Assembly (NCBI GenBank): GCA_020053735.1
Contig: JAGVMP010000011.1
Span: forward strand, 62,001-126,000
Reading direction: 5' to 3'
DNA from: Pseudomonadota bacterium
Lineage (GTDB): Bacteria; Pseudomonadota; Gammaproteobacteria; Burkholderiales; Methylophilaceae
DNA: 64,000 nucleotides
Position 1 is the first letter of the stretch, and the number at the start of each line of letters is the position of its first letter. Shown here piece after piece: positions 24,909 to 51,017 of this stretch. Position numbers and translations under genes: made by a program. A model generated the notes under the pieces. That model worked only from the letters and a program-made list of their open reading frames with translations, ran no database searches and was not told the origin of the DNA.

Positions 24909-24998
24909 AACGGTTAATACGCTTACGTTTTATCAATTATGAGATAATAATGATTGGTCAGATAGCATCGCAAATTAATTGCGAACTTGAGGTTATTC

Positions 24999-30070: not shown

Positions 30071-30077
30071 GGTAGAT

Positions 30078-32898: not shown

Positions 32899-33639
32899 TT
32901 AATAGGTGAAATCAAGCGATCTATACTCAGTTTGTTTCTTTATGACGAGATTAGGCATGCAGCAAGCACTAAGGATTAATAAAACCAACCAAACCACCCA
33001 AGCCGACCAAAGACTGTGCGATAAAAAATGAGCACCACGTAGCATTTGTGTCCACCCCATTACAAAACCCAGCATGAGAGAAATTACTAAACTGACATAG
33101 GCAAATATCGGATGAGTACGTCTGAATGCAAAAAAGAATGCCATCAATGCAAAACCACCGCTGGCATGCCCTCCTGGCCAGCAATGCCCTGCCATTTCCC
33201 CTTTTGGCAAGTTAGCGAACAATGGATAAAATGGAAAGTTGCCACCAAACTGGATTAAATCCCATGGGCATGCATGCATGCTTTGGCTTTTGAGAATGGA
33301 GACTGCAAGCGTGCTCAACATCATGCCTGCAAAAGACCAAATTAATTGACGCCGGACCAAAGCAGATAATTTTAATTTGTGGCCAAATGTGGCTAAAAAA
33401 AGCGTCATTAATGCAATAAAAATTACAAAATTGCGCAATCCTACATGCATGACTTGTGTTAAAAACGCATCATTCTTCAAACTGAAAATTTTATTGTCTA
33501 CATCGTAGTAAGGGCTGATTAAATCAAAATCTAAGTTGGTTTTTGGATAAACCCACAGTAGCAATACTGCACAAGCAATCAAATAAAACACTTGCTTAAT
33601 GTGCCAAGTAGCGAAAGGTGATAACTTGTTGATAAACAT
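32899..33639 (-). CDS. PAP2-family membrane phosphatase, copy A
   Basis: The 246-residue protein has six membrane helices and PAP2 motifs: CPWDLIQFGG, PGGHASGG (the PSGH signature with Gly for Ser) and RGAHFLSHSLWSA (catalytic His). PAP2 enzymes of this LpxE/LpxT-like type remove or move phosphate on lipid A, undecaprenyl phosphate or phosphatidyl lipids in the periplasm. It is two bases downstream of the sulfatase gene and 32 bases upstream of the LtaS-like gene, so the three form one operon. A near copy is at 45344. Confidence 0.85.
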   Translation of the reverse strand: MFINKLSPFATWHIKQVFYLIACAVLLLWVYPKTNLDFDLISPYYDVDNKIFSLKNDAFLTQVMHVGLRNFVIFIALMTLFLATFGHKLKLSALVRRQLIWSFAGMMLSTLAVSILKSQSMHACPWDLIQFGGNFPFYPLFANLPKGEMAGHCWPGGHASGGFALMAFFFAFRRTHPIFAYVSLVISLMLGFVMGWTQMLRGAHFLSHSLWSAWVVWLVLLILSACCMPNLVIKKQTEYRSLDFTY

Positions 33640-35610: not shown

Positions 35611-35628
35611 TTGCAAACACCAAGCCAA
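35611..35628 (-). promoter_or_regulatory. Sigma54-type promoter of sulfatase operon A
   Basis: On the minus strand TTGGCTTGGTGTTTGCAA gives the invariant GG-N10-GC of a -24/-12 promoter, with GG at 35625-35626 and GC at 35613-35614, close to the TGGCAC-N5-TTGCA consensus. It lies 38 bases upstream of the sulfatase ATG and the same 18 bases are conserved at 48077-48094, although flanking spacer has diverged. No better sigma70 promoter is apparent. Confidence 0.7.
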
Positions 35629-35711
35629 CAATCTAACCAAGCAACAAAATATATAAGATATTGTTTTTAAATGTAATTTAATATTAAAACAAATCGGAAA
35701 AAGCACAAACA

Positions 35712-35726
35712 CTGCATTACTTGCAT
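35712..35726. promoter_or_regulatory. Candidate upstream activator site (sulfatase operon A)
   Basis: The near-palindrome ATGCA-AGTAA-TGCAG (minus strand) lies about 86-100 bases upstream of the -24 element, a usual distance for an NtrC-type activator. It matches the sites at 36879, 36921, 48181 and 49353. The regulator encoded in the same block is the obvious candidate to bind it. Confidence 0.5.
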
Positions 35727-35737
35727 GAAGTCATAAA

Positions 35738-36763
35738 TTAACCTGCAAAATTTGCAAGAGTAATTTGCTTAGGTTGGTTGATTGATAAACACTGAGCTGG
35801 CTGGCCTAAGCAGCCTTGTTGTAAATGGTAACTTTTAAGTACCAAACCATGTGCATCATATTGCTGTAAATGCATAGCGGATTTATTTAGGCGTACACTT
35901 AAAAAGCCATGCACAGACTCACCATATTTCAACTGACTATCTCGATATTTGATAGGATATAAATCAGCCCCACCCCCCCCAGAAATAAAATATAGGGGTT
36001 CGTTTTGGTTAACGATAGCTTGTTGATTGTGATCATGCCCGCTGATATAAGCATCAATTTTCGCTACTTTAAATGCTGGCAATAAAAATTGTTGCATCAG
36101 CGCGGTTTCATCCGCATGTTTGCCATAGTTACGAACTGGGTGATGTCCGATCACTATGCGCCAAACAGGTTGTTTAGTGTTTTCTGCAAAGCTTTTCTGA
36201 ATAAAGTCAGCTTGTGTTTTTAATGATTCAGCATTTGGTTGGGTATCCAAAAATACGACTCTTAATAGTGGCCTGCCCCCAATATTTCCCATATCTCTTG
36301 CATAAAATCTGGCTGGCATGCGCCAACGATTAGAGCCACTATTGTGTTCAGAATAGGCTAATTCATCTTTGATTTTTTTCAACTTGTCATGATTGCCCAG
36401 TACTGCGTAAAAAGGTACCGCATCTAAAAATCTACCAGAATAGACATTTTCAAAATATGCGTTCCACACTTTACTCTTCAAACCCAAATCTCTGCCCGTA
36501 TAAAAGTTATCCCCTAGGATAGCGACAAAATCTAATTTCTTATTTTGTTCTGCAACCTGTTCCATCGCTTTAGCTACACGCCATTGTACAAAATTACCTT
36601 TGCCCGCATCGCCCAAAGCAAAAAAAGTAATCTCTTTGGATTCGTTGATGTCAGAAGGAATGCGCTGGTTTGGTTCTTTAATAATAAACAGAAAACATGC
36701 AACTAAGAACAATATAAGCACAGATGCAAATAGTAAATATTTGGTTCGAAGTGAATTTGACAT
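35738..36763 (-). CDS. Secreted metallophosphoesterase, copy A
   Basis: The 341-residue protein has an N-terminal membrane anchor or signal (residues 10-28) and a calcineurin-like phosphatase domain: ALGDAGKGN, GDNFYTGRD, GNHDK, GHHPVRNYG and SGHDHNQ, the full set of metal ligands of purple acid phosphatase-like enzymes. It should cleave phosphate esters in the periplasm or outside the cell. A run of eight G on the coding strand (C8 at 35973-35980) encodes part of SGGGGADLYP and could slip. It has its own sigma54-type promoter. The copy B gene is broken. Confidence 0.87.
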   Translation of the reverse strand: MSNSLRTKYLLFASVLILFLVACFLFIIKEPNQRIPSDINESKEITFFALGDAGKGNFVQWRVAKAMEQVAEQNKKLDFVAILGDNFYTGRDLGLKSKVWNAYFENVYSGRFLDAVPFYAVLGNHDKLKKIKDELAYSEHNSGSNRWRMPARFYARDMGNIGGRPLLRVVFLDTQPNAESLKTQADFIQKSFAENTKQPVWRIVIGHHPVRNYGKHADETALMQQFLLPAFKVAKIDAYISGHDHNQQAIVNQNEPLYFISGGGGADLYPIKYRDSQLKYGESVHGFLSVRLNKSAMHLQQYDAHGLVLKSYHLQQGCLGQPAQCLSINQPKQITLANFAG

Positions 36764-36800
36764 AAGTATAGATTCATCAAAGTTAATTTTTTATATTTAT

Positions 36801-36814
36801 GCAACAAATATGCC
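36801..36814 (-). promoter_or_regulatory. Sigma54-type promoter of metallophosphoesterase A
   Basis: On the minus strand GGCATATTTGTTGC gives GG-N10-GC with a consensus TTGCA at -12. The start codon lies 37 bases downstream. Two palindromic sites lie 65-121 bases upstream. The equivalent promoter in copy B is at 49275-49288. Confidence 0.65.
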
Positions 36815-36878
36815 TTCAATACAACCTTATGATTTTTATAATAAAAATTAAAATCACCGCTAATTATTAGCAATTTTC

Positions 36879-36935
36879 ATGCAAAATATGCATAAAATTA
36901 TTTGTTTGTATGTAGGTTTCATGCAATATATGCAT
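36879..36935. promoter_or_regulatory. Pair of palindromic activator sites
   Basis: Two near-identical palindromes, ATGCAAAATATGCAT (36879-36893) and ATGCAATATATGCAT (36921-36935), have centres 42 bp apart, about four helical turns, so they face the same side of the DNA. Paired sites upstream of a -24/-12 promoter are the classic arrangement for an NtrC-type dimer-of-dimers. Confidence 0.6.
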
Positions 36936-36987
36936 ACTCGATCAGTAAACTCATCACCAATATCAAATAGGTAAGCACTAAACTAGA

Positions 36988-37210
36988 GTGTTTACTTATG
37001 TAGGAAAACCGCTAAAGGCTGTGAATACTAAAGCATGGGGCAATACATTAAGGCGTGCTGGTATTACAGATTTCCGCTGGCATGATTTAAGACATACTTG
37101 GACAAGGTGGCAACGACAGGCTGGCACACAGACGCATGAGTTACAACGCTTAGGGGCTGGTGGAGCGGTATGCCCATCTTGCACCTGAAAGCATGGCAAT
37201 TGCTGCGTAA
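36988..37210 (+). pseudogene. Tyrosine integrase remnant (C-terminal fragment, frameshifted)
   Basis: The first part encodes VFTYVGKPLKAVNTKAW and FRWHDLRHTW, the HxLR box of phage-type tyrosine recombinases. A frame change near 37155 then leads to VERYAHLAPESMAIAA, which contains the catalytic Tyr region, ending at a TAA at 37208-37210. The piece between the LGGW-like and VERYA segments is missing, as is the N-terminal three quarters. It therefore cannot be active. It ends 55 bases before a hairpin and 88 bases before the third tRNA-Lys fragment, the usual place for an integrase beside its attachment site. Confidence 0.85.
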
Positions 37211-37264
37211 CGACTAGATTCGAAGTTTGATGGTTACATTCTGCTAAACAAGCCACCAATAAAA

Positions 37265-37292
37265 AAAGTCTAGTCATCTCTGACTAGACTTT
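37265..37292. terminator. Perfect 12-bp hairpin with TCTC loop (third scar)
   Basis: AAAGTCTAGTCA and TGACTAGACTTT (37265-37276, 37281-37292) form a perfect hairpin with loop TCTC, the same loop and inner stem as at 17479-17506. A terminal T-rich arm fits a terminator for the integrase remnant, or for a tRNA transcript read from the other strand. Confidence 0.65.
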
Positions 37293-37297
37293 ATATT

Positions 37298-37345
37298 TGG
37301 TAGGGCGTGCGGGGATCGAACCCACGACAAACGGATTAAAAGTCC
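37298..37345 (-). repeat. tRNA-Lys 3' half (att-like), copy 3
   Basis: This is the best preserved copy. On the minus strand it contains part of the anticodon stem, loop CTTTTAA (anticodon TTT), variable loop, T-arm GTGGGTTCGATCCCCGC, acceptor strand ACGCCCT-A and CCA. The D-arm and 5' acceptor are absent, so it is an attachment-site duplicate, not a tRNA gene. The adjoining integrase remnant supports this reading. Confidence 0.82.
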
Positions 37346-37388
37346 ACCCCCAACATTGAGTACTGGATTGCACTACATGGTAGTATTT

Positions 37389-37459
37389 GTTCCGCAAAGT
37401 CTTACTCATGAAGCGATTTACACCTAGCATATATGTGGTTCTTTTTATTTTTGCGGAAC
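37389..37459. repeat. 10-bp inverted repeat bounding a 51-bp spacer
   Basis: GTTCCGCAAA (37389-37398) and TTTGCGGAAC (37450-37459) are perfect inverted repeats. Copy A has the same arms with two changes near 21670-21740. The location just inside the tRNA-Lys fragment fits an integrase arm or excision-factor site of the old element. The stem could also be a terminator for the regulator gene. Confidence 0.5.
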
Positions 37460-37579
37460 AGAAAATCTCTATTATTTAATAACATCCCCTCAAAAACCTA
37501 TTGACGATTACACTAAAACTTTGGGCACGCACTCGCAGTCAATTTATTAACTTTAAGATGAATATAACTGTTGTTGGAT

Positions 37580-38929
37580 TTATTTTTTAAGTTGATACAA
37601 ATCTAGCTTATTCCAAAGACTTCGCTCACTAATATCCAGCAGCCTGGCTGCTTTAGCTTTATTACCTTGACACTCAAGAAGTGCTTCGGAAATTAATTTC
37701 TTTTCTATTAATGCAACCGTTTCTGGTATTGAAAGATTGTTTAAAACTGGATCTGCTACACTATGTAAACTTATGTTCCTAGCATCAATAATATCTTTAG
37801 GTAAATCCACTAATTCGATGTTTCTATTTTTACAAATGATAGCTGCGCGTTCTATAATGTTTTGCAACTCACGCACGTTGCCAGTCCATTGATATTGCAT
37901 TAGTGCTGACAGCGCAAGGTCTGTTATTTCAACTTTGTGGCGCTGAGCAAAGTGTTTTGCCAACACAGTTATATCATCAGCACGTTCACGCAATGGCGGC
38001 ACATTAAGTTGAAAAACATTTAGGCGATAATACAAATCCTCTCGTAATTTACCTGCTTGAACAGCTTCTAACGGGTTTCTATTGGTGGCCGCCACTATGC
38101 GTAAATCTAATGCTATTTGACGGTTATCACCCACTTTTTCAATCACACCTTCTTGTAATGCCCTGAGTAATTTTGCTTGTAAACGCATGGGCATTTCAGT
38201 GATTTCATCTAAAAATAATGTGCCGCCGTTTGCCAGTTCAAACTTACCAGTGCGTGATTTTATTGCGCCTGTAAATGCCCCTTTTTCATGCCCAAACAAT
38301 TCTGATTCCATTAGATCTGCTGGAATAGCCGCACAGTTAATTGCTACAAATAATTGATTTTTACGTGGAGATTGCTGATGTAACATTTGAGCAACCAGTT
38401 CTTTACCCGTGCCTGTCTCACCAGTAATTAATACAGTGGCTTTACTTGGGGCTACTTGCTCAATTAGGTGCTTGATTTCTTGTATCTGTGTGCTGTTGCC
38501 AATCAATAGTTCTGTAGTCTGCTTTTCCTCACGAAAATAAGTATTCTCAATTTGCAGCCGCTTGTTATTTAACACTTTTGAAATGGCAATTTCTAATGTT
38601 TCAAGCTCAAAAGGTCGCAATATATAGTCTGAAGCGCCTAATTTCATTGCTTCAACTGCAGTTTTAATCTCCCCCTGCGCTGTCACCATAATAAACGGCA
38701 GGCTTTCTGATTGCTGACGTATGGCTTCTAATAATGCTAAGCCATTCATACTCGGCATATGAAAATCACTAACAATTAAATCAATGTGCTCTGTTTTTAT
38801 TATTTCTAGGGCAGCTTTACCATTGTTCGCTATTAAAGGTTTATAACCCGCTTGGCGCAAGCTAATTTCTAGCAATCTACGCATATTAGGTTCATCATCT
38901 ACTGCTAAAATTGTTTTCTGAATTTGCAT
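37580..38929 (-). CDS. Sigma54-dependent NtrC-family response regulator, copy B
   Basis: The 449-residue protein has the same layout as the regulator at 21888-23237: Asp55 receiver, GETGTGKE Walker A, GAFTGA and a Fis-like C-terminus. The two differ at scattered positions; for example AIAKALDHKRLQV is AISKVLNNKRLQI here. The DNA-recognition helix (AKAARLLDISERSLWNKL) has one conservative change, so both copies probably recognise the same sites. It is co-transcribed with the kinase at 38942 (12-base gap). Confidence 0.92.
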   Translation of the reverse strand: MQIQKTILAVDDEPNMRRLLEISLRQAGYKPLIANNGKAALEIIKTEHIDLIVSDFHMPSMNGLALLEAIRQQSESLPFIMVTAQGEIKTAVEAMKLGASDYILRPFELETLEIAISKVLNNKRLQIENTYFREEKQTTELLIGNSTQIQEIKHLIEQVAPSKATVLITGETGTGKELVAQMLHQQSPRKNQLFVAINCAAIPADLMESELFGHEKGAFTGAIKSRTGKFELANGGTLFLDEITEMPMRLQAKLLRALQEGVIEKVGDNRQIALDLRIVAATNRNPLEAVQAGKLREDLYYRLNVFQLNVPPLRERADDITVLAKHFAQRHKVEITDLALSALMQYQWTGNVRELQNIIERAAIICKNRNIELVDLPKDIIDARNISLHSVADPVLNNLSIPETVALIEKKLISEALLECQGNKAKAARLLDISERSLWNKLDLYQLKK

Positions 38930-38941
38930 TTTTATCTTAAG

Positions 38942-40612
38942 TTATTGTGATTTAACTAACTGGCTAAGTGGCAGGCTGATTGTAAAAAGTGCACCACCAA
39001 ACTGACTATTTGAACAAGTAATTTCACCATGGTGTGACAGTATAATCTGACGCACAATTGCTAAACCTAAACCCACCCCACCTGCACGTTGGGTAAAAAA
39101 AGGCTCAAAGATTTGTGCTTGAATCTCCTCTGTCATTCCAGGCCCATCATCAGATATTTCAACTTTTGCAGTGTCTTCAACTGTATGTAACCTTATATTT
39201 ACAACGCCGCCTGTTGGCAAAATTTGAATTGCATTCATTAAAATATTCATAAAAACTTGAGTCATTTGATCTGTATCTACTTCCAAAAATACAGGTCCTG
39301 CAAATTCGGAATTTAATACAATGCCATTAGATTCTGCCTGACCTCGCAATAATGCAATGGAATTTTTAATTACCTGTGCAATATCCACTTTAACAAACAC
39401 AGGTGCACGTGGTCGTGCTGCATCAATTAAACTAGAAACCAATTTATTTAAACGTTCTGTTTCAGAAATAATAAACCCCAACACCTCTTTGCCATCGTTG
39501 GTTAGTTTAGGCTCACGCAACAATAAATCAGCAGATGATCTTAAAATCCCTAGCGGTGTACGTATTTCGTGGCTCATGGCGGCAGCCAACTCCCCTACTA
39601 CTGCTAATTTAGCAGCCCTAGAGAGATTGGCTTGGGTTTTAACCAAATCGCCAATTAATCCTTCAAATGCCAACGCTAACTCTTGCACTTCTGGGGGACC
39701 TGATTTTGGCGTTTCTGACAATTGTCCTTGCTTAAAACTACGCACAAATATGGTAAGTTTAGCTAAAGGTTGAGTAATTGCTTGCGCTATTGGGGTAACT
39801 AAAAATGCTGCTAATAGAAGTGTAGTTGCCAATAACGCAAGGAAGATATATCCGAGACGATGTACAGGCGCGATTGCAACTGAATGCAACTTTTCTACTC
39901 GTAACTGCCATTTTGAGACGACTGACTGACTAGAAAATTGGCTAACTGCACGCATTTCATAGCCATTTTGTGTGTTCCAGTTGGTAGTTGATGCTAATAA
40001 ATTTCCTTGTTCATCTAATAATGCTGCAGCAGTAGGCTTACGTACGGCAGTTTTGAGAAAATCTTGTATTTGCTGCCAGTTGAATTCAGCAACAAGTTTC
40101 CCAATAACTATATTAGAGTTATCGTCTTTAATCTCTTGAGAAATTGATAGTGCATTACTTTTGATTTTATAAAAATCAATCCTTTTTTCAGCTTCACCAT
40201 GACTAAACCAATAATTGGGTAAATTTGCTGTCTGATTTAACAACTTAGCATTGCTAGAGGCAATAACCTTATTGTTAATATCGACAACATAAATCGTTTT
40301 ATATACACCATCATAGCTACTATTCAACTCCTCTAAAAATATAGACAACCGTTTATCCACATCCTCAAGCAGTAGTTCCTGCATAATGGCCAGTTGACTC
40401 CACGAGGCCACATTTTTAACCCGCTCGAACATCATGCGCGAGACATCATTGCTTACAGTCTGACTCAGGGTTACGATGTCTCGCGTGAGTTCCTTTTTAA
40501 GCACTACTCTTGCTTGATAAAAGCTTAAAAAGCTGACTAGCATTGCTGGGAGCAGCCCAGCTAAAAGAAATGCCACTAACAAAAGCTTGGGAATAGATAA
40601 ACGTTTAATCAA
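38942..40612 (-). CDS. Membrane sensor histidine kinase, copy B
   Basis: The 556-residue kinase is a full-length copy of that at 23250-24908, with intact AAMSHEIRTPLG, DDGPGM and GGVGLGLAIV motifs and a C-terminal extension of four residues. The periplasmic sensor region is largely conserved (VYKTIYVVDINNKVIASSN), with several changes around the middle (FYKIKSNALSISQEIKDDNSN in part). It may sense the same or a related ligand. Cross-talk with regulator copy A is expected from the conserved dimerisation helices. Confidence 0.9.
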   Translation of the reverse strand: MIKRLSIPKLLLVAFLLAGLLPAMLVSFLSFYQARVVLKKELTRDIVTLSQTVSNDVSRMMFERVKNVASWSQLAIMQELLLEDVDKRLSIFLEELNSSYDGVYKTIYVVDINNKVIASSNAKLLNQTANLPNYWFSHGEAEKRIDFYKIKSNALSISQEIKDDNSNIVIGKLVAEFNWQQIQDFLKTAVRKPTAAALLDEQGNLLASTTNWNTQNGYEMRAVSQFSSQSVVSKWQLRVEKLHSVAIAPVHRLGYIFLALLATTLLLAAFLVTPIAQAITQPLAKLTIFVRSFKQGQLSETPKSGPPEVQELALAFEGLIGDLVKTQANLSRAAKLAVVGELAAAMSHEIRTPLGILRSSADLLLREPKLTNDGKEVLGFIISETERLNKLVSSLIDAARPRAPVFVKVDIAQVIKNSIALLRGQAESNGIVLNSEFAGPVFLEVDTDQMTQVFMNILMNAIQILPTGGVVNIRLHTVEDTAKVEISDDGPGMTEEIQAQIFEPFFTQRAGGVGLGLAIVRQIILSHHGEITCSNSQFGGALFTISLPLSQLVKSQ

Positions 40613-40702
40613 AACCGTAAACTCGCTTACGTTTTATCAATTATGAGATAATAATTATTAGTCATATAGGATTGCAAAATGATTGCAAACTTGAGGTTAT
40701 TC

Positions 40703-41707
40703 ATGCGGATTAGTTGTGTTTTCATTGTTGGTAGTCTAGCCTTGAGCATTGGGCTATGCAAGCCTGCATTTGCTGAAGAATCGCCTAATTGGAGAGAAAA
40801 TTTTAAGTTAGGTGGATTTAGCAGTGCGGGTATCACAATCAATCGCGATGAAAGTCCAGAAGCGGCGATAAACGAAATTAGTTTGTTGTTTAGTTGGGCT
40901 AATGACTCACGTTTAAGTTTTTTTAGTGAGCTAGAACTTGAAAGGCCGTTAAGCGTAGGCGACGATGAAGAGTTTAGCCGTAAAGAAGGCAGGCTAGATT
41001 TAGAGCGTTTTTACTTTGACTACAATATTTCAGAAAAAGTAAATTTTCGTGCAGGTCGTTTTTTAACACCCAACAGTCGCTGGAATCTTTTACGTGCGCC
41101 TCCTTTATTGTGGACAAGCTCGCGTCCTCTTGCCACCGCAAGGCTTTTCCCCACCAGAACAGATGGTTTAATGGTGCATGGCGCAGTGCCATTTAAAAAC
41201 AGTGCATTTGAATATAAGCTGTTCGCAGAACTAATAAAAGACCAAGAACAAGAAAATAACGAGTTAGCCTTTGAACAAGTGCGTGGTGCGAGATTTAGTC
41301 TAAAAAACGAGTCCGATCTTGGAGTTTCACTATTATCGTTTACCGAAAAGGGCATTAATGCAGGCAGTTTTAGAATGCTGGGTTTAGATTATCTGACGTA
41401 TTTTAAAGATATCGAAGTGAGTGCCGAAGGTTTTAAAAGGTTTAATACTGATAATAAAGACGGTGGTAGCGGTGCATATATACAAACTGCAGTGCCACTT
41501 AACACAATAGGTTTTCAAGACTGGTATTGGATCACTCGGCTGGAGACATTTCAACGTCCGAATGAAGGGTCTTTTGAACGTTGGTTATTAGGTGCTACCT
41601 TGCGGGTTAAACCTACACAGTTGCTCAAGCTAGAGCTTATCGGTGGCAGTGGCGACCAACCTCAATCCCCTCGCGGGTTAACAGCTTCATTCGCACTGTT
41701 TTTTTAA
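40703..41707 (+). CDS. Outer-membrane beta-barrel (porin-like) protein, copy B
   Basis: This intact barrel has 334 residues and corresponds to the gene at 24999, with the same signal peptide type and terminal FTASFALFF-like end (LTASFALFF). I prefer ATG 40703, which has GAGG seven bases upstream, as in copy A. A further in-frame ATG at 40679 would add eight residues but has no counterpart start codon in copy A (TTA there). Divergent from the kinase gene and followed 12 bases later by the binding-protein gene. Confidence 0.75.
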   Translation: MRISCVFIVGSLALSIGLCKPAFAEESPNWRENFKLGGFSSAGITINRDESPEAAINEISLLFSWANDSRLSFFSELELERPLSVGDDEEFSRKEGRLDLERFYFDYNISEKVNFRAGRFLTPNSRWNLLRAPPLLWTSSRPLATARLFPTRTDGLMVHGAVPFKNSAFEYKLFAELIKDQEQENNELAFEQVRGARFSLKNESDLGVSLLSFTEKGINAGSFRMLGLDYLTYFKDIEVSAEGFKRFNTDNKDGGSGAYIQTAVPLNTIGFQDWYWITRLETFQRPNEGSFERWLLGATLRVKPTQLLKLELIGGSGDQPQSPRGLTASFALFF

Positions 41708-41719
41708 CGGTGTGATGGC

Positions 41720-42208
41720 ATGCATTATTTAACAATTATTGTATTATTCATTTCAATGACGGCATCATTAAATGCTTTTTCTAATGGGCGCCAGCCAATA
41801 ATCGCAGTGGTGGTGGATACTAAAGAAAATGTAGCAGACTTAAAGTTTACCAGTAACGAATTGCGTTTAATTTTTTTGCGCAAACAATTGTATTGGCCAA
41901 TGGGGCGCAGAATTAAGCCTGTAAATCTGACTGCAGAACATCCGTTGCGCTTGCTGTTTTCTCAAACAGTATTAGGTAGTCCGCCTAAAAAGCAAGTTGA
42001 TTATTGGAATGGTTTATACTTTAACGGAATATCTCCGCCGTACTCGGTTAATTCCGAAGAAGCAGTTTTACGCTATATATCACAAACCGACGGTGCAATT
42101 GGTTATATAAACGCCTGCAAATTAGATGATCGTGTAAATCCATTAGCCTGGATTGTGAATAATCAAATTAGCATGAGTGAACCAGCTACGAGTAACTGTG
42201 ATGACTAA
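41720..42208 (+). CDS. Small phosphate-binding-protein-like periplasmic protein, copy B
   Basis: The 162-residue protein is the partner of that at 26016-26504. The pattern FTSNELRLIFLRKQLYWPMG, YWNGLYFNGISPP and SQTDGAIGYINA is retained. The start is ATG here and GTG in copy A. As in copy A it has no permease genes. It probably works with the barrel and kinase as a sensing group. Confidence 0.68.
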   Translation: MHYLTIIVLFISMTASLNAFSNGRQPIIAVVVDTKENVADLKFTSNELRLIFLRKQLYWPMGRRIKPVNLTAEHPLRLLFSQTVLGSPPKKQVDYWNGLYFNGISPPYSVNSEEAVLRYISQTDGAIGYINACKLDDRVNPLAWIVNNQISMSEPATSNCDD

Positions 42209-42212
42209 GTAA

Positions 42213-42450
42213 GGCTTACTTGTTAGAAATAACCAAAAGTCCAGCAACAATCAGTGGTGTCCCACAAGCAATTCGTCATGTAATCGCCTCCTTAAGTAAC
42301 TACCAAGCCAGCAATATGGCTATCACCACACTGCCCTTATCAATTAAAGCAATGGTTGCTACATCGCCTAATTTAAGTCCTCTATAATAAAAAATCTAAG
42401 ACCCCGCTGTGGTCAGCGCCGATAAACCAAGCCAAATATAATTGACTTTT
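42213..42450 (-). pseudogene. EamA transporter pseudogene, copy B
   Basis: The segment aligns with the 3' half of the EamA gene at 26511-26933. Three codons for Trp in copy A have become stops: TGA at 42276-42278, TAG at 42300-42302 and TAG at 42396-42398 (minus strand). Similarity ends near 42440, where the sequence changes to unrelated DNA. It therefore marks the inner left border of the shared part of the duplication. The spacer from here to 42546 holds nothing else that I recognise. Confidence 0.8.
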
Positions 42451-42546
42451 TCCAAATGCGCCAACTCGCTTGCAGTTAACATCGCATAGAGAACGAAATA
42501 AAGTGCTAACCGCCTGCCAGGCAAAATTTAAACACTTGCTTGTATA

Positions 42547-43995
42547 TTATTTTAAAAATAAACGATAACTCCCGCTGTCACCAATCACTTTAAAGTTAAT
42601 TAACTGGTTATTTAAACTGGATAACTGTTTCTTTTTTACAGCAATATAAATAGGTTTATTTTTTGCTATTGCATCAAGCTCTTGTAATGTTTTAATATTT
42701 AACGATTTTCCATTACTATAAAAGCTTGCTGAAAAAGGTCGATCATTTAAAAATACGATTGGTTGCAAACTATTTTGCATTTTATAAAGTGAGATGATTG
42801 ATTTTGCGGATTTACTATCTGCCCTGTGACCTAACGTTAAAGCACTCAATATACCCAACATTATAAGCAGGCTAATTACGCTACCGAAATAGATAATTTT
42901 CTTTATCAATAAATGATCAAATTTATTTAACCAAAGCGCTAAGTACATTGCTAAAGGCGGCAACCCAGGCAGTACATACGTCCACAAAATATTGCCTGAC
43001 ATGGTAAAGAACAAACAAGGTGCAAGGCCAGCTAATAATAAAAAGTGATTTTCTTTACATTGATTGGCTACGTTATTTTTATGAATTTGTTTTTTATAAA
43101 TCCAAGCTGTTAAAGGAAGCATAAAGCTCCATGGTAATGCGCCGTAAATTAGGTATAGCCAAATGACACCGTGTTTAGTTGCATGAGCACTGCCATACAT
43201 ATCTCCTTTCCACCCTGAAACTGTAAAACGTTGCCAATGCTCGCCAACAAAAAAATAATTTAAAAAACCAGGTGTATGCTGTTCAGCAATTAAATACCAA
43301 GGCAACGCGGCAGCAATAGCCAGAATTGAACCTGTTATCCAAGGTAGCCCTTGCCAAGTTTTTTTTATTGATCCTGTAGTAAGTGCCCACAAACTAATAG
43401 GAAGCAATACTAACACCCAGCCAATGGGGCCTTTAGCAAGTAACATTAAAGTTAAACCAATAAAAAAAATCCATTGCTCACGTTTTTTTTCATTTTCGAG
43501 ACCAAATAAACTCAGCCAAAAACCGCGCAACGATAAAGTACTGCCTAAACAAAGTGCCATATCAGTCATTACCGCCCCTGAAGACACCATAAACAAAAAT
43601 GATGTACTTAATATTGCGATTACATAGAAGGGATTGATCAGGCTACGTTTTGCCCAATCATAACTAATGATTACAATTAATAAAGCGGCAAAAAAATGAG
43701 GAATTCGAACAGCGAATTCATTAACACCAAATAATTTAATTCCAAAAGAAGACATCCAAAATGATAAAGGTGGCTTCCCCCAAAACGGCACTCCAGTATC
43801 AAACCATGGCGTTATCCAATCATTCGTTTCAGCCATTTTGCGCGCAATTTCACCGTATCTACCTTCAGTAGTATCCATTAACGGGTATAGGCCAAGTGAA
43901 ATTAATCGAATTAAAATTAATACAATAAGCACATACATCGTGCTTTTGCCTAAATGTAATTCGCATTCATGCCAGAAGTTTGATAATTTTTTCAT
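42547..43995 (-). CDS. GT39-family membrane glycosyltransferase (ArnT-like)
   Basis: The protein has about 482 residues with 10-12 membrane helices and an early periplasmic loop with TTEGRYGEIARKM and PFWGKPPLSFW, the acidic pair region typical of ArnT/PMT-like GT-C enzymes. These take sugar from polyprenyl phosphate and attach it to lipid A or another acceptor outside the inner membrane. I prefer ATG 43995, ten bases after the GT2 stop; a TTG at 44031 would overlap the GT2 gene. It ends the operon sulfatase-PAP2-GtrA-GT2-GT39. Confidence 0.8.
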   Translation of the reverse strand: MKKLSNFWHECELHLGKSTMYVLIVLILIRLISLGLYPLMDTTEGRYGEIARKMAETNDWITPWFDTGVPFWGKPPLSFWMSSFGIKLFGVNEFAVRIPHFFAALLIVIISYDWAKRSLINPFYVIAILSTSFLFMVSSGAVMTDMALCLGSTLSLRGFWLSLFGLENEKKREQWIFFIGLTLMLLAKGPIGWVLVLLPISLWALTTGSIKKTWQGLPWITGSILAIAAALPWYLIAEQHTPGFLNYFFVGEHWQRFTVSGWKGDMYGSAHATKHGVIWLYLIYGALPWSFMLPLTAWIYKKQIHKNNVANQCKENHFLLLAGLAPCLFFTMSGNILWTYVLPGLPPLAMYLALWLNKFDHLLIKKIIYFGSVISLLIMLGILSALTLGHRADSKSAKSIISLYKMQNSLQPIVFLNDRPFSASFYSNGKSLNIKTLQELDAIAKNKPIYIAVKKKQLSSLNNQLINFKVIGDSGSYRLFLK

Positions 43996-44005
43996 GCGTT
44001 TATGC

Positions 44006-44944
44006 TTACTTTGAACTAAAATATTTTTCAATCAGGTAAATTGGTCGTTGTTTAATTTCGGTATAAATAAGGGCGATATACTCCCCCAAAATACCAATAC
44101 AAAATAACTGAATACCGCCAATAAATAGGATAGTAATAATTAAAGTTGGGAACCCTTGCACAGTTTCATCTGTGACAAGAGTTTTTAAAATAAAATAAGA
44201 GGCATATATAAAAGTACCTCCAGCACTTATTAAACCTAACCAAGTCGCTATTTTTAATGGCATTGTTGAAAATGCTGTTATCCCTTGCCATGCTAACCTA
44301 ACTAATTTCAAAAACGGCCACTTTGAATATCCAGCTACTCGCCCATTACGCACATACTCTATGGTTGCTTGTGGGTAGCCAACCCACGCATACAAACCCT
44401 TCATAAAACGGCTACGCTCGGGAAGTTGATTCATCGCATCAATCGCTAAACGGCTAAATAACCTAAAATCCCCTACATTGTGTGGAATAGCTACTTCACC
44501 GATTTTGCCTATTAAGTCATAAAATAAACTTGCTGTTGTTTTCTTCCAATAAGTATCACTTTCCCGTGAAGCACGCTTCATATTCACTATATCGGCGCCA
44601 TTACGCCAAGCTTTTAACATGGCAGGTATAAGTGTTGGTGGGTCTTGCAAATCCGCATCGATTATAATGGCTGCTTCGCCACGACATAATTTAAAACCTG
44701 CCGTCATAGCCGCTTCTTTGCCAAAATTACGACTAAATTTTGTGTAAGCAATCTCAGGATATTGATTTCTTAAATTTAATATGATGGCCTCCGTGTTATC
44801 TGCACTTCCATCATTAATGTAAATAATTTCATAGGTGATATTTAGTGGGTTTATCACTTTAATTAACTGTTCATTAAATAAAGGCAGAGCTATTTCTTCA
44901 TTGTAAACGGGGACTATGATGCTTAGTAAAACTGACGTTGTCAT
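44006..44944 (-). CDS. GT2-family polyprenyl-phosphate glycosyltransferase (GtrB/ArnC-like)
   Basis: The 312-residue protein has a GT-A domain with LSIIVPVYNEE, INDGSADNT and IIDADLQDPP (DXD) and two C-terminal membrane helices (about 230-250 and 265-290), the layout of GtrB, ArnC and DPM1. It should load a sugar onto undecaprenyl phosphate for the GT39 enzyme. I prefer ATG 44944, which overlaps the GtrA stop (ATGA); the longer start at 44956 overlaps more. Confidence 0.87.
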   Translation of the reverse strand: MTTSVLLSIIVPVYNEEIALPLFNEQLIKVINPLNITYEIIYINDGSADNTEAIILNLRNQYPEIAYTKFSRNFGKEAAMTAGFKLCRGEAAIIIDADLQDPPTLIPAMLKAWRNGADIVNMKRASRESDTYWKKTTASLFYDLIGKIGEVAIPHNVGDFRLFSRLAIDAMNQLPERSRFMKGLYAWVGYPQATIEYVRNGRVAGYSKWPFLKLVRLAWQGITAFSTMPLKIATWLGLISAGGTFIYASYFILKTLVTDETVQGFPTLIITILFIGGIQLFCIGILGEYIALIYTEIKQRPIYLIEKYFSSK

Positions 44945-45315
44945 GTAAATGTCCAAAAACGGTTGATGGTAAAAGTTAAAATTAATGCAGCTACCGTAGC
45001 CATTAATTGCGCTAACAGATAATGTAAATGGATGCTAAAAACTGCCACTATGATTGTCTGAACAAATATACCAAGACAAGCAACCAATAAAAATTTAGGA
45101 AACACCAGTGAATGTTTGGTTTGGCTTGAAAAAGTATGATGATAATTTAGGAAGTAGGCGGTAAATGCACCATATGTACTTCCAAGTAAAGTACTTTTCC
45201 AAGGTGCTAATAAAAAATAATAAATGCAGATTAAAAATATTGCATAGTGCAACATCGTTGCAATTGCGCCAACCAAGCTGTAATGAATAAAGGATTTTGT
45301 TAACGATTTAAACAT
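44941..45315 (-). CDS. GtrA-family membrane protein (flippase-like)
   Basis: The 124-residue protein has four membrane helices and the GtrA ends FIHYSLVGAIATMLHYAIF and INRFWTFT. GtrA proteins are thought to flip polyprenyl-phosphate sugars across the inner membrane. The gene precedes GT2 and GT39, forming a complete three-step lipid-linked sugar transfer set. It starts 28 bases downstream of the PAP2 stop. Confidence 0.87.
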   Translation of the reverse strand: MFKSLTKSFIHYSLVGAIATMLHYAIFLICIYYFLLAPWKSTLLGSTYGAFTAYFLNYHHTFSSQTKHSLVFPKFLLVACLGIFVQTIIVAVFSIHLHYLLAQLMATVAALILTFTINRFWTFT

Positions 45316-45343
45316 GCTTAAAAATGGCTTGATTGTTAGTTAA

Positions 45344-46096
45344 CTAAGGTAAATTAATAGGCGAAATCAAGCGATCTAAATTCAGCTTGTTTTTTGTAAC
45401 TGGCTTGGGCATGCAGCAAGCGCTAAGGATTAATAAAACCAACCACATTGCCCATGCAGACCAAAGACTATGTGATAAGAAATGTGCACCGCGTATCATT
45501 TGAGCCCAGCCCATCACAAAACCCAACATGAGAGATATAACTAAACTGACATAGGCGAATATTGGATGAGTGCGTCTAAATGCAAAGAAGAATGCCATCA
45601 ACGCAAACCCGCCGCTTGCATGACCACCTGGCCAGCAATGACCTGCCAATTCACCTTTTGGTAAATTAGTGAACAACGGATAAAATGAAAAGGTGCCACC
45701 AAATTGGGTTAAATCCCACGGGCATGCATGCATACTTTGGCTTTTTAGAATGGAGACTGCAAGCGTGCTTAACATCATGCCCGCGAAAGCCCAACTCAAT
45801 TGACGGCGCACCAGAGCAGATAATTTTAATTCCTTGCCAAACACTGCTAGCAGAAGTGTTATTAAGGCAATAGAAATTACGAAATACCGTAATCCCAGAT
45901 GCATATATTGTGTTAAAAATAAATCATTCTTTAAACTAAAAATTTTAATTTCTACGTCGTAATAAGGCTTGATTAAATCAAAATCTAAGTTGGTTTTTGG
46001 GTAAATCCAAAGTAAAAATACCGCACAAATAATCAAATAAACTACTTGTTTGATGTGCCATGATGCGAGCGGAGATAGCTTGTCAATAACCATCAT
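45344..46096 (-). CDS. PAP2-family membrane phosphatase, copy B
   Basis: The 250-residue protein is the counterpart of that at 32899-33639, with motifs CPWDLTQFGG, PGGHASGG and RGAHFLSHSLWSA intact. The start overlaps the sulfatase stop by one base (TAATG), tighter than the two-base gap in copy A. It should act on a periplasmic lipid phosphate. Two ATG codons in tandem (46096 and 46093) serve equally well. Confidence 0.85.
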   Translation of the reverse strand: MMVIDKLSPLASWHIKQVVYLIICAVFLLWIYPKTNLDFDLIKPYYDVEIKIFSLKNDLFLTQYMHLGLRYFVISIALITLLLAVFGKELKLSALVRRQLSWAFAGMMLSTLAVSILKSQSMHACPWDLTQFGGTFSFYPLFTNLPKGELAGHCWPGGHASGGFALMAFFFAFRRTHPIFAYVSLVISLMLGFVMGWAQMIRGAHFLSHSLWSAWAMWLVLLILSACCMPKPVTKNKLNLDRLISPINLP

Positions 46097-48039
46097 TAAT
46101 GCGTGCTTGATTTAGTTGGTTTTCTTGTAAAGTGACTTAAATCACGCATTATTTGCATGTTGGTGTTAGTTTTCTTATGCAACATGGCGCTGGCTTCAGC
46201 ACCATTAAGTGCAACATCCTTTCTTGTACTCACTTTTTGCATAAAGAAGGCTTGGCTGTTTACTGGCTGAACAATTTTCACGTCTTGATCTACATAAGCC
46301 AACTTATCCCAGTCTGCGATATAGGCATGATTACGTGCTTTATCGCTCAATAAGTTGAGGCCAATACTGTAATCACTATTTGGATTTGTTACGCCTAGCA
46401 TTGGCATTAGCATTGGCATTAGGGTTGGCACAATATCGCTATGGCTGGTTAATCTAGTCACAACCTTTGCTGCTTGTTTGGGGGCATAGATTACAAGAGG
46501 CGTGCGCACTTGTTCATCGACAAATGTTGAGTTGTGGCCCCAAAAACCATGCTCCATAAATTCTTCACCATGGTCGCCTACTAAAATCACAATGGTATTG
46601 TTTGTTAAGTTTTTCTCTTTTAGATAATCAAACACACGCTTATATTGACTATCCAAATGATGCACTGCATTTATGTAGCGGTTTTTAATCGGCACAATGT
46701 CTTGACGAAGTGCCTCTTTGCTTAACGTTGCGTAGTTCAAATCATCACGATATGGCTTTGCAATCACACTTTCAGGCGGGAAAAAGTAGCGCGCGTGAGG
46801 AGACTCAAAAAACATAAAGGTAAAAAAAGGCTTTCTGGTATCGCGTTTGTCTATAAATTGAATTAGATCACTTACATTCTGCTGATCGTTTTGCCAAGAA
46901 ATTTTGCCGTTACGTTGTAAGGCCTGCATTTTGGTCTCTGGTACTTGTGCAAAAATAGTTCTATCAAACTCTGGATAACTAAATAAGGCACTAGTAAAAA
47001 AGCGCATCTGGTAATCTTGCTTCTGCATCACGTCGATGATTGCTGCACCGCGCTGCTCTTGTAAGAATTGAAACCAGTAACTGGCAGGCATACCCATAAA
47101 CATGCTAAAGACGCCTGCGCGTGTGCCATTGCCACCACTGTAATTTTGCGTAAAACGTGTGGCTTGTTTGGCAAATTGCCAGGTATTCGGCATTACTTCT
47201 TCGTTTAAAGTGTCTGCTCGCCAAGATTCTGCCGCCAGCCAAATTATGTTGTAAGGCTTTGCAGGTTTGTTAAATTGAATGGGGCTTAAAGGATAATTAA
47301 GCTTCCCTTTGATTTTCAAAGATGTGTCTCGCCTACCTGTGATTCCCATTGCTCTAAATAAGCTGCGTGAGGAAACTGTTTGGTAAAAAGGCACCGCTTG
47401 AGCCACTGATGCAAGGCCATTAGAGGTAAAACGATCAAATGCGAATGTCATGTGAAGCGCAATAACCGCAATTAATGCGATTGAAATAGCGCGCCAATTA
47501 GAGATAAATTTGAATAAATTTAGTTGGGTTACTATCTGTGTTTTGCTTAAGCGAATTGCAAAATAAAGCAAACTAATTTGCATCAAGAAAAATCCTATTG
47601 CAATCGCAGCAAAACTAGCATCAGTTGCTGAACTGCCACCCAAAGATTCTATCCCGCCCGGTGTGAATACTAGATTGAGAACAAATCCATTGATATACAT
47701 GCCATATAATGCATAAAGCTTGGCATTTGCATAAAACAGTAAGGTACTTATACCTGTGGTAATAATTGCAGTGACATAAACAGTTGTTTGATATTTATTA
47801 TTTGGTGAATCAGCTTGTTGGATTTTGACTCTGAGAAGTTTTTTTGCGAGATGTGTAATGACATAAGCTGGTATTAAATAAAATACCCCATACATCAAAA
47901 AAGCAGCAATTAAAAATGCAAATGTGAGAATGTTTTCTGTATAAATAGACTGAAACTCAATCGAGCCAGAAACTAAAAATAAGATGAGTAAATAGCTAAG
48001 AATGAAAAATAGTCTTAAAGAAGTGTTGAGCAATGGCAT
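46096..48039 (-). CDS. DUF3413-like membrane sulfatase/phosphotransferase, copy B
   Basis: The 647-residue protein corresponds to 33642-35573. Metal and nucleophile motifs (AAESWRAD, GNGTRAGVF, VGDHGEEF) are intact. A short in-frame duplication gives LMPMLMPMLGV where copy A has LMPMLGV; the DNA there repeats GCATTGGCATTA, a typical slippage event. It is first in the operon with PAP2, GtrA, GT2 and GT39 and is preceded by the conserved sigma54-type promoter. Confidence 0.86.
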   Translation of the reverse strand: MPLLNTSLRLFFILSYLLILFLVSGSIEFQSIYTENILTFAFLIAAFLMYGVFYLIPAYVITHLAKKLLRVKIQQADSPNNKYQTTVYVTAIITTGISTLLFYANAKLYALYGMYINGFVLNLVFTPGGIESLGGSSATDASFAAIAIGFFLMQISLLYFAIRLSKTQIVTQLNLFKFISNWRAISIALIAVIALHMTFAFDRFTSNGLASVAQAVPFYQTVSSRSLFRAMGITGRRDTSLKIKGKLNYPLSPIQFNKPAKPYNIIWLAAESWRADTLNEEVMPNTWQFAKQATRFTQNYSGGNGTRAGVFSMFMGMPASYWFQFLQEQRGAAIIDVMQKQDYQMRFFTSALFSYPEFDRTIFAQVPETKMQALQRNGKISWQNDQQNVSDLIQFIDKRDTRKPFFTFMFFESPHARYFFPPESVIAKPYRDDLNYATLSKEALRQDIVPIKNRYINAVHHLDSQYKRVFDYLKEKNLTNNTIVILVGDHGEEFMEHGFWGHNSTFVDEQVRTPLVIYAPKQAAKVVTRLTSHSDIVPTLMPMLMPMLGVTNPNSDYSIGLNLLSDKARNHAYIADWDKLAYVDQDVKIVQPVNSQAFFMQKVSTRKDVALNGAEASAMLHKKTNTNMQIMRDLSHFTRKPTKSSTH

Positions 48040-48076
48040 GTGAATTATTTATAGTAATTAAGTTATACCATTACTA

Positions 48077-48094
48077 TTGCAAACACCAAGCCAA
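48077..48094 (-). promoter_or_regulatory. Sigma54-type promoter of sulfatase operon B
   Basis: The 18-base -24/-12 element is identical to that at 35611-35628, 38 bases upstream of the sulfatase ATG. Conservation of this block while surrounding spacer has diverged is evidence for function. Confidence 0.7.
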
Positions 48095-48180
48095 CAACTC
48101 AAACCAATCGAAAAATCAATTAACTTATTGTTTTAATTATATATTTTATATATGCCAATAAATTAAACAATGCACAAACA

Positions 48181-48195
48181 CCGCATTATTTGCAT
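48181..48195. promoter_or_regulatory. Candidate upstream activator site (sulfatase operon B)
   Basis: Minus-strand ATGCA-AATAA-TGCGG is the equivalent of the site at 35712-35726 with one more mismatch. It lies about 89-103 bases upstream of the -24 element. Confidence 0.4.
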
Positions 48196-48206
48196 AAAAT
48201 CATTAT

Positions 48207-49233
48207 TTAACCTGCAAAATTTGCAAGAGTTAAATGCTTTGGAGAATTCATGGATAGGCACTCAGCTGGTTGACCTGCGCAGCCTTGCTTGATCTGGTAA
48301 TTATTGAGCACTGCACCACTTGCATCATATTGTTGTATCTGTAGCGCATATTGATTCATGCGCACACTCAAAAAACCATGCACAGATTCACCATATTTCA
48401 ATTGACTATCTCGATACTTAATAGGGTACAAACCAGCACCACCCCCGCCAGAAATAAAATAAAGAGGTTAGTTTTGGTTAACGATTGCTTGTTGGTTGTG
48501 GTCGTGGCCACTGATGTAAGTGTCGATTTTCGCTTCTTTGAGCGCAGGCAATATATATTGCTGCATTAGCGCAGTTTCATCGGCATGTTTGCCATAGTTG
48601 CGAACGGGGTGATGTCCTATCACTATGCGCCAAACAGGCTGTTTAGTGTTTTCTGCAAAGCTTTTCTGAATAAAGTCAGCTTGTATTTTTAATGACTCTA
48701 CATTTGGTTGAGTATCCAAAAATACAACTCGTAGTAGTGGCCTACCCCCAATACTTCCCATATCTCTTGCATAAAACTTAGCCGGCATACGCCAGCGGTT
48801 AGAACCACCATTGTGCTCAGAATAGGCTAATTCATCTTTAATTTTATTAAGCTTATCGTGATTGCCCAGTACCGCATAAAAAGGTATTGCATCTAAAAAT
48901 CTACCCGAATAAACATTTTCAAAATATGCGTTCCATACTTTGCTCTTTAAGCCCAAGTCACCGCTTGTATAAAAGTTATCTCCTAGTACAGCTATAAAAT
49001 CTAATTTCTTATTTTTTTCTGCAACCTCTTCCATTGCTTTGGCAACGCGCCATTGTGCAAAATTACCTTTACCTGCATCCCCCAAAGCAAAAAAAGTAAT
49101 GTTCTTAGATTCATTAATGTCAGATGGAATGCTTTGGTTTGGGTCTTTAATAACTAACAAAAGAAATGCGAATATAAGCGATGCTAGTATGATGATAATT
49201 AAGTAATATTTTTTTTTTTAGTAATTTTGACAT
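48207..49233 (-). pseudogene. Metallophosphoesterase pseudogene, copy B
   Basis: This is the counterpart of the gene at 35738-36763. Two defects are visible. A run of eleven A after the start (minus strand, T11 at 49209-49219) shifts the frame, whereas ten A would restore the anchor and join it to the main frame. Further on, the Glu codon of NQNEPLY is changed to TAA at 48468-48470, in frame with the C-terminal part. All metal-binding motifs upstream of the stop, including GDNFYTS, GNHDK, GHHPVRNYG and SGHDHNQ, are still recognisable, so inactivation is recent. The 230-residue piece that can still be translated lacks the anchor and C-terminus. Confidence 0.82.
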
Positions 49234-49274
49234 ATAAGACTAAGCGCTCAAATTATTGAAGTATCTGAGATACT

Positions 49275-49288
49275 GCAAATTACACGCC
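49275..49288 (-). promoter_or_regulatory. Sigma54-type promoter of metallophosphoesterase pseudogene
   Basis: Minus-strand GGCGTGTAATTTGC gives GG-N10-GC, 41 bases upstream of the original start. The core matches the copy A element at 36801-36814 in position and consensus though not base by base. Confidence 0.6.
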
Positions 49289-49352
49289 CATATTGCATAT
49301 TATTGATTTATATAGAAATAATTATTTTTCAGGTTTTTTTATACAAAAATTC

Positions 49353-49398
49353 ATGCAAACTATGCATGAGATAACTACAATTTTTGCAGGGTTTGCAG
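49353..49398. promoter_or_regulatory. Activator sites upstream of metallophosphoesterase pseudogene
   Basis: ATGCAAACTATGCAT (49353-49367) is a clear match to the copy A palindromes. A weaker TTGCAGGGTTTGCAG follows at 49384-49398, with centres about 31 bp apart. It marks the last sequence recognisably shared with copy A. Confidence 0.5.
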
Positions 49399-50738: not shown

Positions 50739-50748
50739 TAGCATTCAA

Positions 50749-50773
50749 CAGCCCAGCAATGGGCTGATTTTTT
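50749..50773 (+). terminator. Rho-independent terminator after methyltransferase
   Basis: CAGCCCA-GCAA-TGGGCTG followed by A and six T. The stem is seven bases with a four-base loop. Confidence 0.8.
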
Positions 50774-50792
50774 ATTACGAAAGGAAATTTAA

Positions 50793-51005: not shown

Positions 51006-51017
51006 ACTTCAAGCTAC

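Follow-up and report, generated by a model that had tools for sequence, protein, structure and literature searches.

What switches on the duplicated envelope genes of a Methylophilaceae bacterium is the question raised by a 64,000-nt stretch of contig JAGVMP010000011.1 (positions 62,001-126,000; host genome 2.44 Mb), hereafter the window. Its two blocks carry sulfatase-fold genes (SULF1, SULF2), a calcineurin-like phosphoesterase gene (MPE1) with a broken copy (MPE2), and two NtrC-type response regulators (RR1, RR2) with their sensor kinases (HK1, HK2). We propose, with a probability of roughly 0.84, that this duplicated two-component system drives a sigma54 regulon of putative envelope-modifying genes through paired operator dyads. 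A sequence-only reading of the window had tied a sigma54 regulon to the two regulators, and that view is strengthened here by the uniqueness of the operator in the genome, its fixed geometry in relatives and its co-occurrence with the regulator locus.

All four promoters (Table 1) contained a GG-N10-GC element in a TGGCA-N6-TTGCA-like context, graded on a score scale defined in the present analysis with thresholds of at least 7, 8 and 9. The distance from the ATG to the C of the GC was 40 bases for SULF1 and SULF2, 38 for MPE1 and 42 for MPE2, so the elements named by the sequence-only reading were all found, at 38-42 bases upstream and not the 37-41 it had given. The common activator site that it had described was also present, in another form, as the operator is a pair of TGCA-N5-TGCA dyads and not a single ATGCA-N5-TGCAT palindrome. 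Three of the five palindromes it had listed (36879, 36921, 49353) were exact, while those at 35712 and 48181 read CTGCA-N5-TGCAT and CCGCA-N5-TGCAT, and it had overlooked the second dyads of SULF1 (35756-35744), SULF2 (48225-48213) and MPE2 (49397-49385), which give every promoter two dyads. The dyads lie upstream, with a dyad-to-dyad spacing of 31 bp at SULF1, SULF2 and MPE2 and 42 bp at MPE1, and with 78 bp (MPE1, MPE2) or 99-102 bp (SULF1, SULF2) from the GG to the start of dyad 2. An IHF-like site, missing from the earlier account, was located between the dyads and the promoter in 4/4 cases (at least 8 of the 9 positions of the IHF consensus; coordinates in the window derived from offsets). 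A site of this kind between enhancer and promoter is a frequent, though not constant, feature of sigma54 promoters. The sulfatase promoter TTGTTGGCTTGGTGTTTGCAATA was, as had been stated, the same in both copies, with only 90/133 identical positions (ungapped) in the surrounding 133 bp.

The single palindrome was rejected as the signal, with 10 ATGCA-N5-TGCAT sites at one mismatch in the window compared to 7.65 expected; because these lone sites were not enriched, the signal is carried by the pair and its geometry. Exact TGCA-N5-TGCA occurred 10 times in the window, 7 of them within the four promoters. Across the whole genome, exact dyad pairs at spacings of 21-51 bp numbered three, all in the window, compared to 0 for a reversed control pattern. 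The genome-wide operator search, a check proposed with the sequence-only reading, recovered at spacings of 31 and 42 bp (up to one mismatch) 3 + 1 pairs, which are the four promoters themselves, with 0 for the control. The module was not recreated in any of the 20,000 dinucleotide shuffles made per upstream region. The sigma54 gene itself, rpoN, was identified in the host genome (PF04552 at C6:74786-75259, 225 bits).

The module was then sought in the family, for which 187 Methylophilaceae genomes (host included) were surveyed; the porin encoded beside the kinase was present in 82 of these (host included) and MPE1 in 6. A set of 94 loci (1.64 Mb) was assembled from the porin regions of the 81 genomes besides the host, to which four regions around MPE genes and a further locus, L190, were added. 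A dyad pair with a -24/-12 element was found in 66 copies across 37/94 loci, 60 of them at a score of at least 8, whereas ten control motif and box combinations over the same loci gave 0-7 matches, or 0-1 at that score. In the 54 modules scoring at least 8 and lying near a start codon, the dyad spacing was 30-33 or 41-44 bp (out of a permitted 28-46), the promoter lay below dyad 2 by 66-70 bp (28 modules) or 112-116 bp (16 modules), together 44/54, and the promoter-to-start distance was 46-57 bp in 37/54. TT preceded the GC in all 54, a set pre-selected for its score. One dyad pair often served two divergent promoters, and in an alignment of 18 such divergent intergenic regions conservation was almost confined to the dyad pair, the -24/-12 element on either side and a TAA-N5-TGATT element, which reads as an IHF-like site on the opposite strand. 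An IHF-like site (at least 8/9) lay between dyads and promoter in 47/58 regions, those of the window among them, compared to 12.5 expected.

Relaxed criteria extended the module to 48/94 loci (counted by eye). A GCAT control in this relaxed scan gave 19 matches and was discarded, as it merely displaces the motif by a single base and so is not independent; the other eight controls gave 0-1. The genes heading the 72 relaxed modules, by best BLASTP, were the T_hemolysin operon (31), PAP2 (16), CptA (8), LtaS-like (6), SULF1 (3), and methyltransferase, acyl-ligase, EptA and unlabelled genes (2 each). This variety bears on the idea that the motifs arose by chance or persist solely through the recent duplication of the blocks. 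The blocks are indeed a duplication, 77-88% identical across compared pieces of 133 to 300 nt, but in relatives the same module heads different families (THEM, EptA, ArnT, CptA, PAP2, LtaS-like), neither the MPE1 nor the SULF1 promoter is a copy of the other, and both the family scan and the Methylophilus pairs described below already contradict it, which leaves this explanation with next to no probability.

In the genus holding Methylophilus (g15), all 42 distinct exact dyad pairs were examined wherever they were located. Among the pairs not seen before, 14 with A/T-rich cores were taken first and then the rest; two of the 14 (G060, G075) fell within earlier loci. A -24/-12 element lay 50-130 bp from the pair in 35/42 cases at a score of at least 7, 32/42 at 8 and 32/42 at 9, compared to 0-9, 0-2 and 0 of 42, respectively, in six control intervals placed 250-830 bp downstream of the dyads. 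These ratios argue against a reading in which an unrelated protein, repressor or activator, uses the dyads as operators at sigma70 promoters and the GG-N10-GC is incidental: sigma70-like hexamers do occur near some starts (e.g., 49279-49252 and 35605-35578, minus strand), but such matches were rarer in the region than in shuffles (36 vs. 48.6), and we consider this account very improbable. Pairs in loci already seen all had the element (20/20), as did 15/22 new pairs. The T_hemolysin operon was the head at 15 pairs (with CptA on the opposite side at 5 and PAP2 at 7), followed by EptA-type (11) and ArnT-like genes (5), CptA alone (1) and three others, namely an unlabelled frame with GT2 and ArnT-like genes after it, an OmpA-like barrel, and one without a labelled gene. 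Most ArnT-like targets were within about 15 kb of the porin locus, whereas most EptA-type targets were on other contigs or megabases away from it, and the regulon therefore acts in trans.

Which protein occupies the dyads is addressed by co-occurrence. Exact dyad pairs were present in 49/82 porin-positive compared to 16/105 porin-negative genomes (Fisher 2e-10), while rpoN was present in 82/82 porin-positive genomes and in 176/187 overall. The promoters could be true sigma54 promoters whose dyads bind another NtrC-type activator, such as NtrC, with the nearby kinase and regulator controlling something else. Seven full-length sigma54-activator matches (218-249 bits) are encoded in the host genome, of which only two are RR1 and RR2; the NtrC site TGCACC-N5-GGTGCA also contains TGCA; and the 16 genomes with a pair and no porin fit such an activator. 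However, the enrichment of pairs with the porin, kinase and regulator locus despite the near-universal rpoN, the strict modules that 27/65 loci contain in the stretches surveyed about porin, kinase, regulator and periplasmic protein (20 kb at most), and a nearly invariant regulator recognition helix (ISER(S/T/A)LWxK in 70/71 orthologues of family loci) make this alternative unlikely. The same helix was present in 7/7 orthologues listed from a scan of named contigs (best 80 of 123 matches), six of them outside the family. Those contigs include, within the family, Methylotenera, Methylophilus, Methylovorus, Methylobacillus and Novimethylophilus; beyond it they include Ca. Nitrotoga, Thiobacillus, Sulfuriferula and Uliginosibacterium.

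Several observations weigh against control by RR1/RR2 through the dyad pairs. The 7 Methylophilus pairs, out of 42, that lack the element all fall among the 22 previously unseen ones (four lie inside open reading frames (ORFs) longer than 150 codons; three others overlap ORFs of 65-139 codons), 33/82 porin-positive genomes lack an exact pair, and the 27 loci with a strict module are a minority of the 65 with porin, kinase, regulator and periplasmic protein. Methylovorus and Methylobacillus loci L145, L146, L148 and L159 had no module even under relaxed criteria, and there the site has therefore drifted or the targets differ. In the window, the MPE1 element lacks the T before the GG (score 7.5) and the HK2 match to dCache_1 is under the Pfam cut-off. 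On the side of procedure, the spacing limits were fixed after the first loci had been inspected, the IHF-like element was spotted in the alignment before its statistical test, L190 (2 modules) was chosen for its dyad pair, L163 was shifted to take in a second known pair, and the genomes are related, so the counts are not independent.

The regulator locus has the same layout in each block, with the regulator and kinase genes facing those of an outer-membrane porin and a half-PstS-like periplasmic protein (PBP). RR1 and RR2 both contain a receiver domain, Sigma54_activat, HTH_8 and GAFTGA, in agreement with the two NtrC-type activators recognized earlier from sequence. The porin model (pLDDT 83.6) matched the Omp32/OmpU barrel (Foldseek E 7e-10), with no sequence relative of the porin found among solved structures, and the PBP model (pLDDT 90.9) corresponded to roughly one half of a PstS-type protein (best seen with PstS 1, Foldseek E 3e-7). 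A periplasmic signal is suggested by domain make-up. The closed circuit that had been proposed, from signal through kinase and regulator to lipid-modifying enzymes and a phosphatase, found no support here: neither HK/porin intergenic region contained TGCA-N5-TGCA (up to one mismatch) or a -24/-12 element scoring at least 7, and the idea that the system also controls itself by way of this operator was discarded as unsupported, because these promoters lack both.

Taken as a mechanism, the kinase would read a periplasmic cue, probably aided by the porin and PBP and perhaps an anion that these two deliver, and would phosphorylate the regulator, as is known for the family. RR1/RR2, rather than another activator, would occupy the TGCA-N5-TGCA pair about 80-100 bp above the promoter, IHF would bind and bend the DNA at the IHF-like site, and the AAA+ domain of the regulator would open the sigma54 polymerase, again as in its family. 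The predicted output would be MPE1 and the operons SULF1-PAP2-LtaS-like and SULF2-PAP2-GtrA-GT2-ArnT-like, and the result an altered charge of lipid A. On the DNA side this scheme draws on the dyad pairs, the -24/-12 elements, their spacing and uniqueness in the genome, and the putative lipid A modification genes found below them in relatives; on the protein side it draws on the sigma54 gene, the predicted regulator domains and the conserved recognition helix. A promoter switch in front of putative lipid-modifying genes in so many relatives looks like real control of the cell surface, as far as sequence can indicate.

The lipid A-type targets in the window itself were limited to ArnT-like, PAP2 and YejM-like sulfatase genes. 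Gene spacing suggests that SULF1, PAP2_1 and the LtaS-like gene are probably one operon, with the LtaS-like gene last, and that SULF2, PAP2_2, GtrA-like, GT2 and ArnT-like genes are probably another, with the ArnT-like gene last. SULF1 was nearest to YejM/LapC by score, yet reached only 156 of the 825 bits of the curated model; its domains were PF00884, DUF229 and Phosphodiest only, without EptA_B_N, and it is not assigned to EptA. SULF1 and SULF2 are YejM-like sulfatase-fold proteins with a membrane part and a putative lipid-modifying role, and predicted EptA-type and CptA-type transferases share their promoter type in relatives. There, EptA-type examples scored 597-614 bits (cut-off 500) and 441-470 on a narrower EptA model (cut-off 660, not reached), a CptA-type example 656 (cut-off 404) and 650 on a second CptA model (cut-off 900, not reached), ArnT-like genes 124-200 (cut-off 567) and a T_hemolysin example 201 (cut-off 27). 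Of the two metallophosphoesterases originally counted in the window, MPE2 is broken, since the frame corresponding to MPE1 is interrupted by two TAA stops; the broken copy still keeps a complete enhancer and promoter. In Methylotenera sp. D1_Bin_51 a single 907-codon ORF (L067:12909-15632) spans the MPE and SULF homologues. At L083, L084 and L085 an operon of EptA-type, EamA, UDP-glucose dehydrogenase-like, epimerase-like, MPE, ArnT-like and GT2 genes sits below a dyad pair and -24/-12 element of the same kind (scores 8, 8 and 7), and its predicted gene content suggests a uronic-acid type decoration.

Table 1. Predicted features of the window (coordinates in the 64,000-nt stretch; UAS, upstream activating sequence; bit scores are given with model cut-offs where these apply).
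Feature	Position	Strand	Sequence or basis
LtaS/phosphoglycerol-transferase-like sulfatase-fold protein	30926..32866	-	below all curated cut-offs tried
PAP2_1, PAP2 phosphatase family	32899..33639	-	PF01569; lipid A phosphatase model 72 bits (cut-off 275); 2-bp gap to SULF1
SULF1, sulfatase-fold membrane protein	33642..35573	-	PF00884; NF038282 156 bits (cut-off 825)
-24/-12 element of SULF1	35613..35626	-	TTGGCTTGGTGTTTGCAATA, score 10
IHF-like site of SULF1	35654..35666	-	AAACAATATCTTA, 8/9
UAS dyad 2 of SULF1	35713..35725	-	TGCAAGTAATGCA
UAS dyad 1 of SULF1	35744..35756	-	TGCAAATTTTGCA, within MPE1 3' end
MPE1, calcineurin-like phosphoesterase	35738..36763	-	PF00149
-24/-12 element of MPE1	36801..36814	-	AAGGCATATTTGTTGCATA, score 7.5
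IHF-like site of MPE1	36822..36834	-	AATCATAAGGTTG, 8/9
UAS dyad 2 of MPE1	36880..36892	-	TGCATATTTTGCA
UAS dyad 1 of MPE1	36922..36934	-	TGCATATATTGCA
RR1, duplicate of RR2	21888..23237	-	Sigma54_activat, HTH_8, GAFTGA
HK1, duplicate of HK2	23250..24908	-	dCache_1 46.8 bits, above cut-off 45
porin1	24987..26003	+	87% identity to porin2
PBP1	26016..26504	+	82% identity to PBP2
RR2, NtrC-type regulator	37580..38929	-	REC, AAA+ with GAFTGA, HTH_8
HK2, sensor kinase	38942..40612	-	HisKA, HATPase_c; dCache_1 37.8 bits, below cut-off 45
porin2, outer-membrane barrel like Omp32/OmpU	40679..41707	+	AF2 model, Foldseek
PBP2, periplasmic half-PstS-like protein	41720..42208	+	predicted model, Foldseek
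ArnT-like PMT glycosyltransferase	42547..44031	-	135 bits to ArnT (cut-off 567)
GT2 glycosyltransferase, PgfS/ArnC-like	44006..44956	-	below cut-offs
GtrA-like	44941..45315	-	PF04138
PAP2_2	45344..46096	-	duplicate of PAP2_1
SULF2	46096..48039	-	duplicate of SULF1
-24/-12 element of SULF2	48079..48092	-	same sequence as SULF1 element
IHF-like site of SULF2	48121..48133	-	AAACAATAAGTTA, 8/9
UAS dyad 2 of SULF2	48182..48194	-	TGCAAATAATGCG, one mismatch
UAS dyad 1 of SULF2	48213..48225	-	TGCAAATTTTGCA, as in SULF1
MPE2 remnant, broken MPE1 copy	48468..49160 (span to 49233)	-	two TAA stops in MPE1-matching frame
-24/-12 element of MPE2	49275..49288	-	TGGGCGTGTAATTTGCAGTA, score 8
IHF-like site of MPE2	49296..49308	-	AATCAATAATATG, 8/9
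UAS dyad 2 of MPE2	49354..49366	-	TGCATAGTTTGCA
UAS dyad 1 of MPE2	49385..49397	-	TGCAAACCCTGCA

The T_hemolysin operon, the most frequent head in relatives, leads to a wider proposal that we hold tentatively and at less than even odds: porin, half-PstS protein and kinase may form an envelope sensor, with one enhancer serving two divergent sigma54 promoters, one for lipid A remodelling and the other for an acyl-derived product of the T_hemolysin, acyl-ligase, haem-oxygenase-like and SDR operon. Regulator and kinase genes facing porin, PBP, T_hemolysin and acyl-ligase genes were found at L257, L260, L262 and L268 (with haem-oxygenase-like and SDR genes at L257 and L262), the four layouts coming from Nitrotoga, Uliginosibacterium, Novimethylophilus and another betaproteobacterium. 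This layout is probably the older one. The arrangement of regulator, porin, PBP and operon is shared by Nitrotoga and by Uliginosibacterium, where no haem-oxygenase-like gene was labelled, and partly by Thiobacillus. The original output may therefore have been the acyl product, with lipid A remodelling added in the Methylophilaceae. No T_hemolysin match (PF12261) was obtained in the host genome, and control genomes gave none either; the host would therefore have retained only the second output, lipid A remodelling. In Vibrio parahaemolyticus, according to the part of the source covered here, the two-component gene VP1735 is predicted to interact with the thermostable-hemolysin gene VP1729 and the iron-containing redox enzyme gene VP1731 (PMC10469919), a set that, as far as described there, resembles the T_hemolysin operon of the relatives.

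Other features of the window lie around the regulon. Between the blocks (36996-37350), the plus strand resembles a tyrosine recombinase C-terminus (WHDLRHTW), and after it the minus strand shows an apparent tRNA 3' portion, both identified by eye; ARAGORN detected no intact tRNA in the window. This remnant is a possible attachment-site scar of the duplication. A PmrAB-like pair of the OmpR type (28742-30740, named by eye), which recurs beside envelope operons at L067:15904-17912 and L083:14678-16671, is a possible second regulator. Beyond the blocks, a DNA methylase gene (Pfam) and relaxase-, TraG- and VirB-like frames read by eye (50058-64000) make up an apparent conjugative element adjoining them.

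In culturable methylotrophs, the regulon would offer a sharply defined case of sigma54 control over EptA-, ArnT- and CptA-like enzymes. Its enhancer, which combines paired dyads and an IHF-like site with two divergent promoters, has a geometry constant enough for direct tests of looping, and the regulon would tie a T_hemolysin-type operon to envelope remodelling.

Control of lipid A modification is usually attributed to OmpR-type regulators, and the regulators of PmrAB, PhoPQ and ColRS are OmpR-type proteins acting at sigma70 promoters. The present system would resemble these in its predicted EptA-type, CptA-type, ArnT-like and PAP2 targets in relatives and differs in its NtrC-type regulator and in paired enhancers above sigma54 elements, in place of an OmpR-type regulator and sigma70 promoters. 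Among the matches listed for open PMC papers, none concerned sigma54 control of EptA/ArnT-type genes by its title or the start of its abstract. Francke et al. (2011) predicted sigma54 control of lipopolysaccharide and other surface molecules, with AtoC-like activators as the most dominant subgroup (PMC3162934, in the parts covered); those parts contain no mention of the present regulator locus, operator or EptA/ArnT targets, and 'lipid a' and 'methylo' occur 0 times in the main text. The response regulator DVU2934 of Desulfovibrio vulgaris is similar in targeting a lipid A gene, lpxC, whereas, from what the covered part of PMC3333781 describes, it has a single target, in biosynthesis and not modification, and its operon context differs, with a histidine kinase and an HD-GYP regulator. 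PrsK/PrsR likewise has an NtrC-type regulator, to whose model TIGR02915 RR2 scored 386 bits, and identity with PrsR, the PEP-CTERM regulator, was rejected as the cut-off is 502.6 bits. The closest likeness by NCBIfam was to AtoSC: the best match of RR2 was AtoC at 436 bits (cut-off 714), and the AtoC sites of atoDAEB are likewise paired and carry TGCA halves. In the E. coli sites GCTATGCAGAAATTTGCACA and GCTATGCAGAAAATTGCGCA these halves are arranged as TGCA-N6-TGCA, with TGCG in the second site (PMC3118216, in the part covered). Identity with AtoC was rejected on the bit score and on the spacing, which is N5 here and N6 there, and, as far as that source goes, AtoC targets short-chain fatty acid catabolism, whereas the targets here would serve envelope modification.

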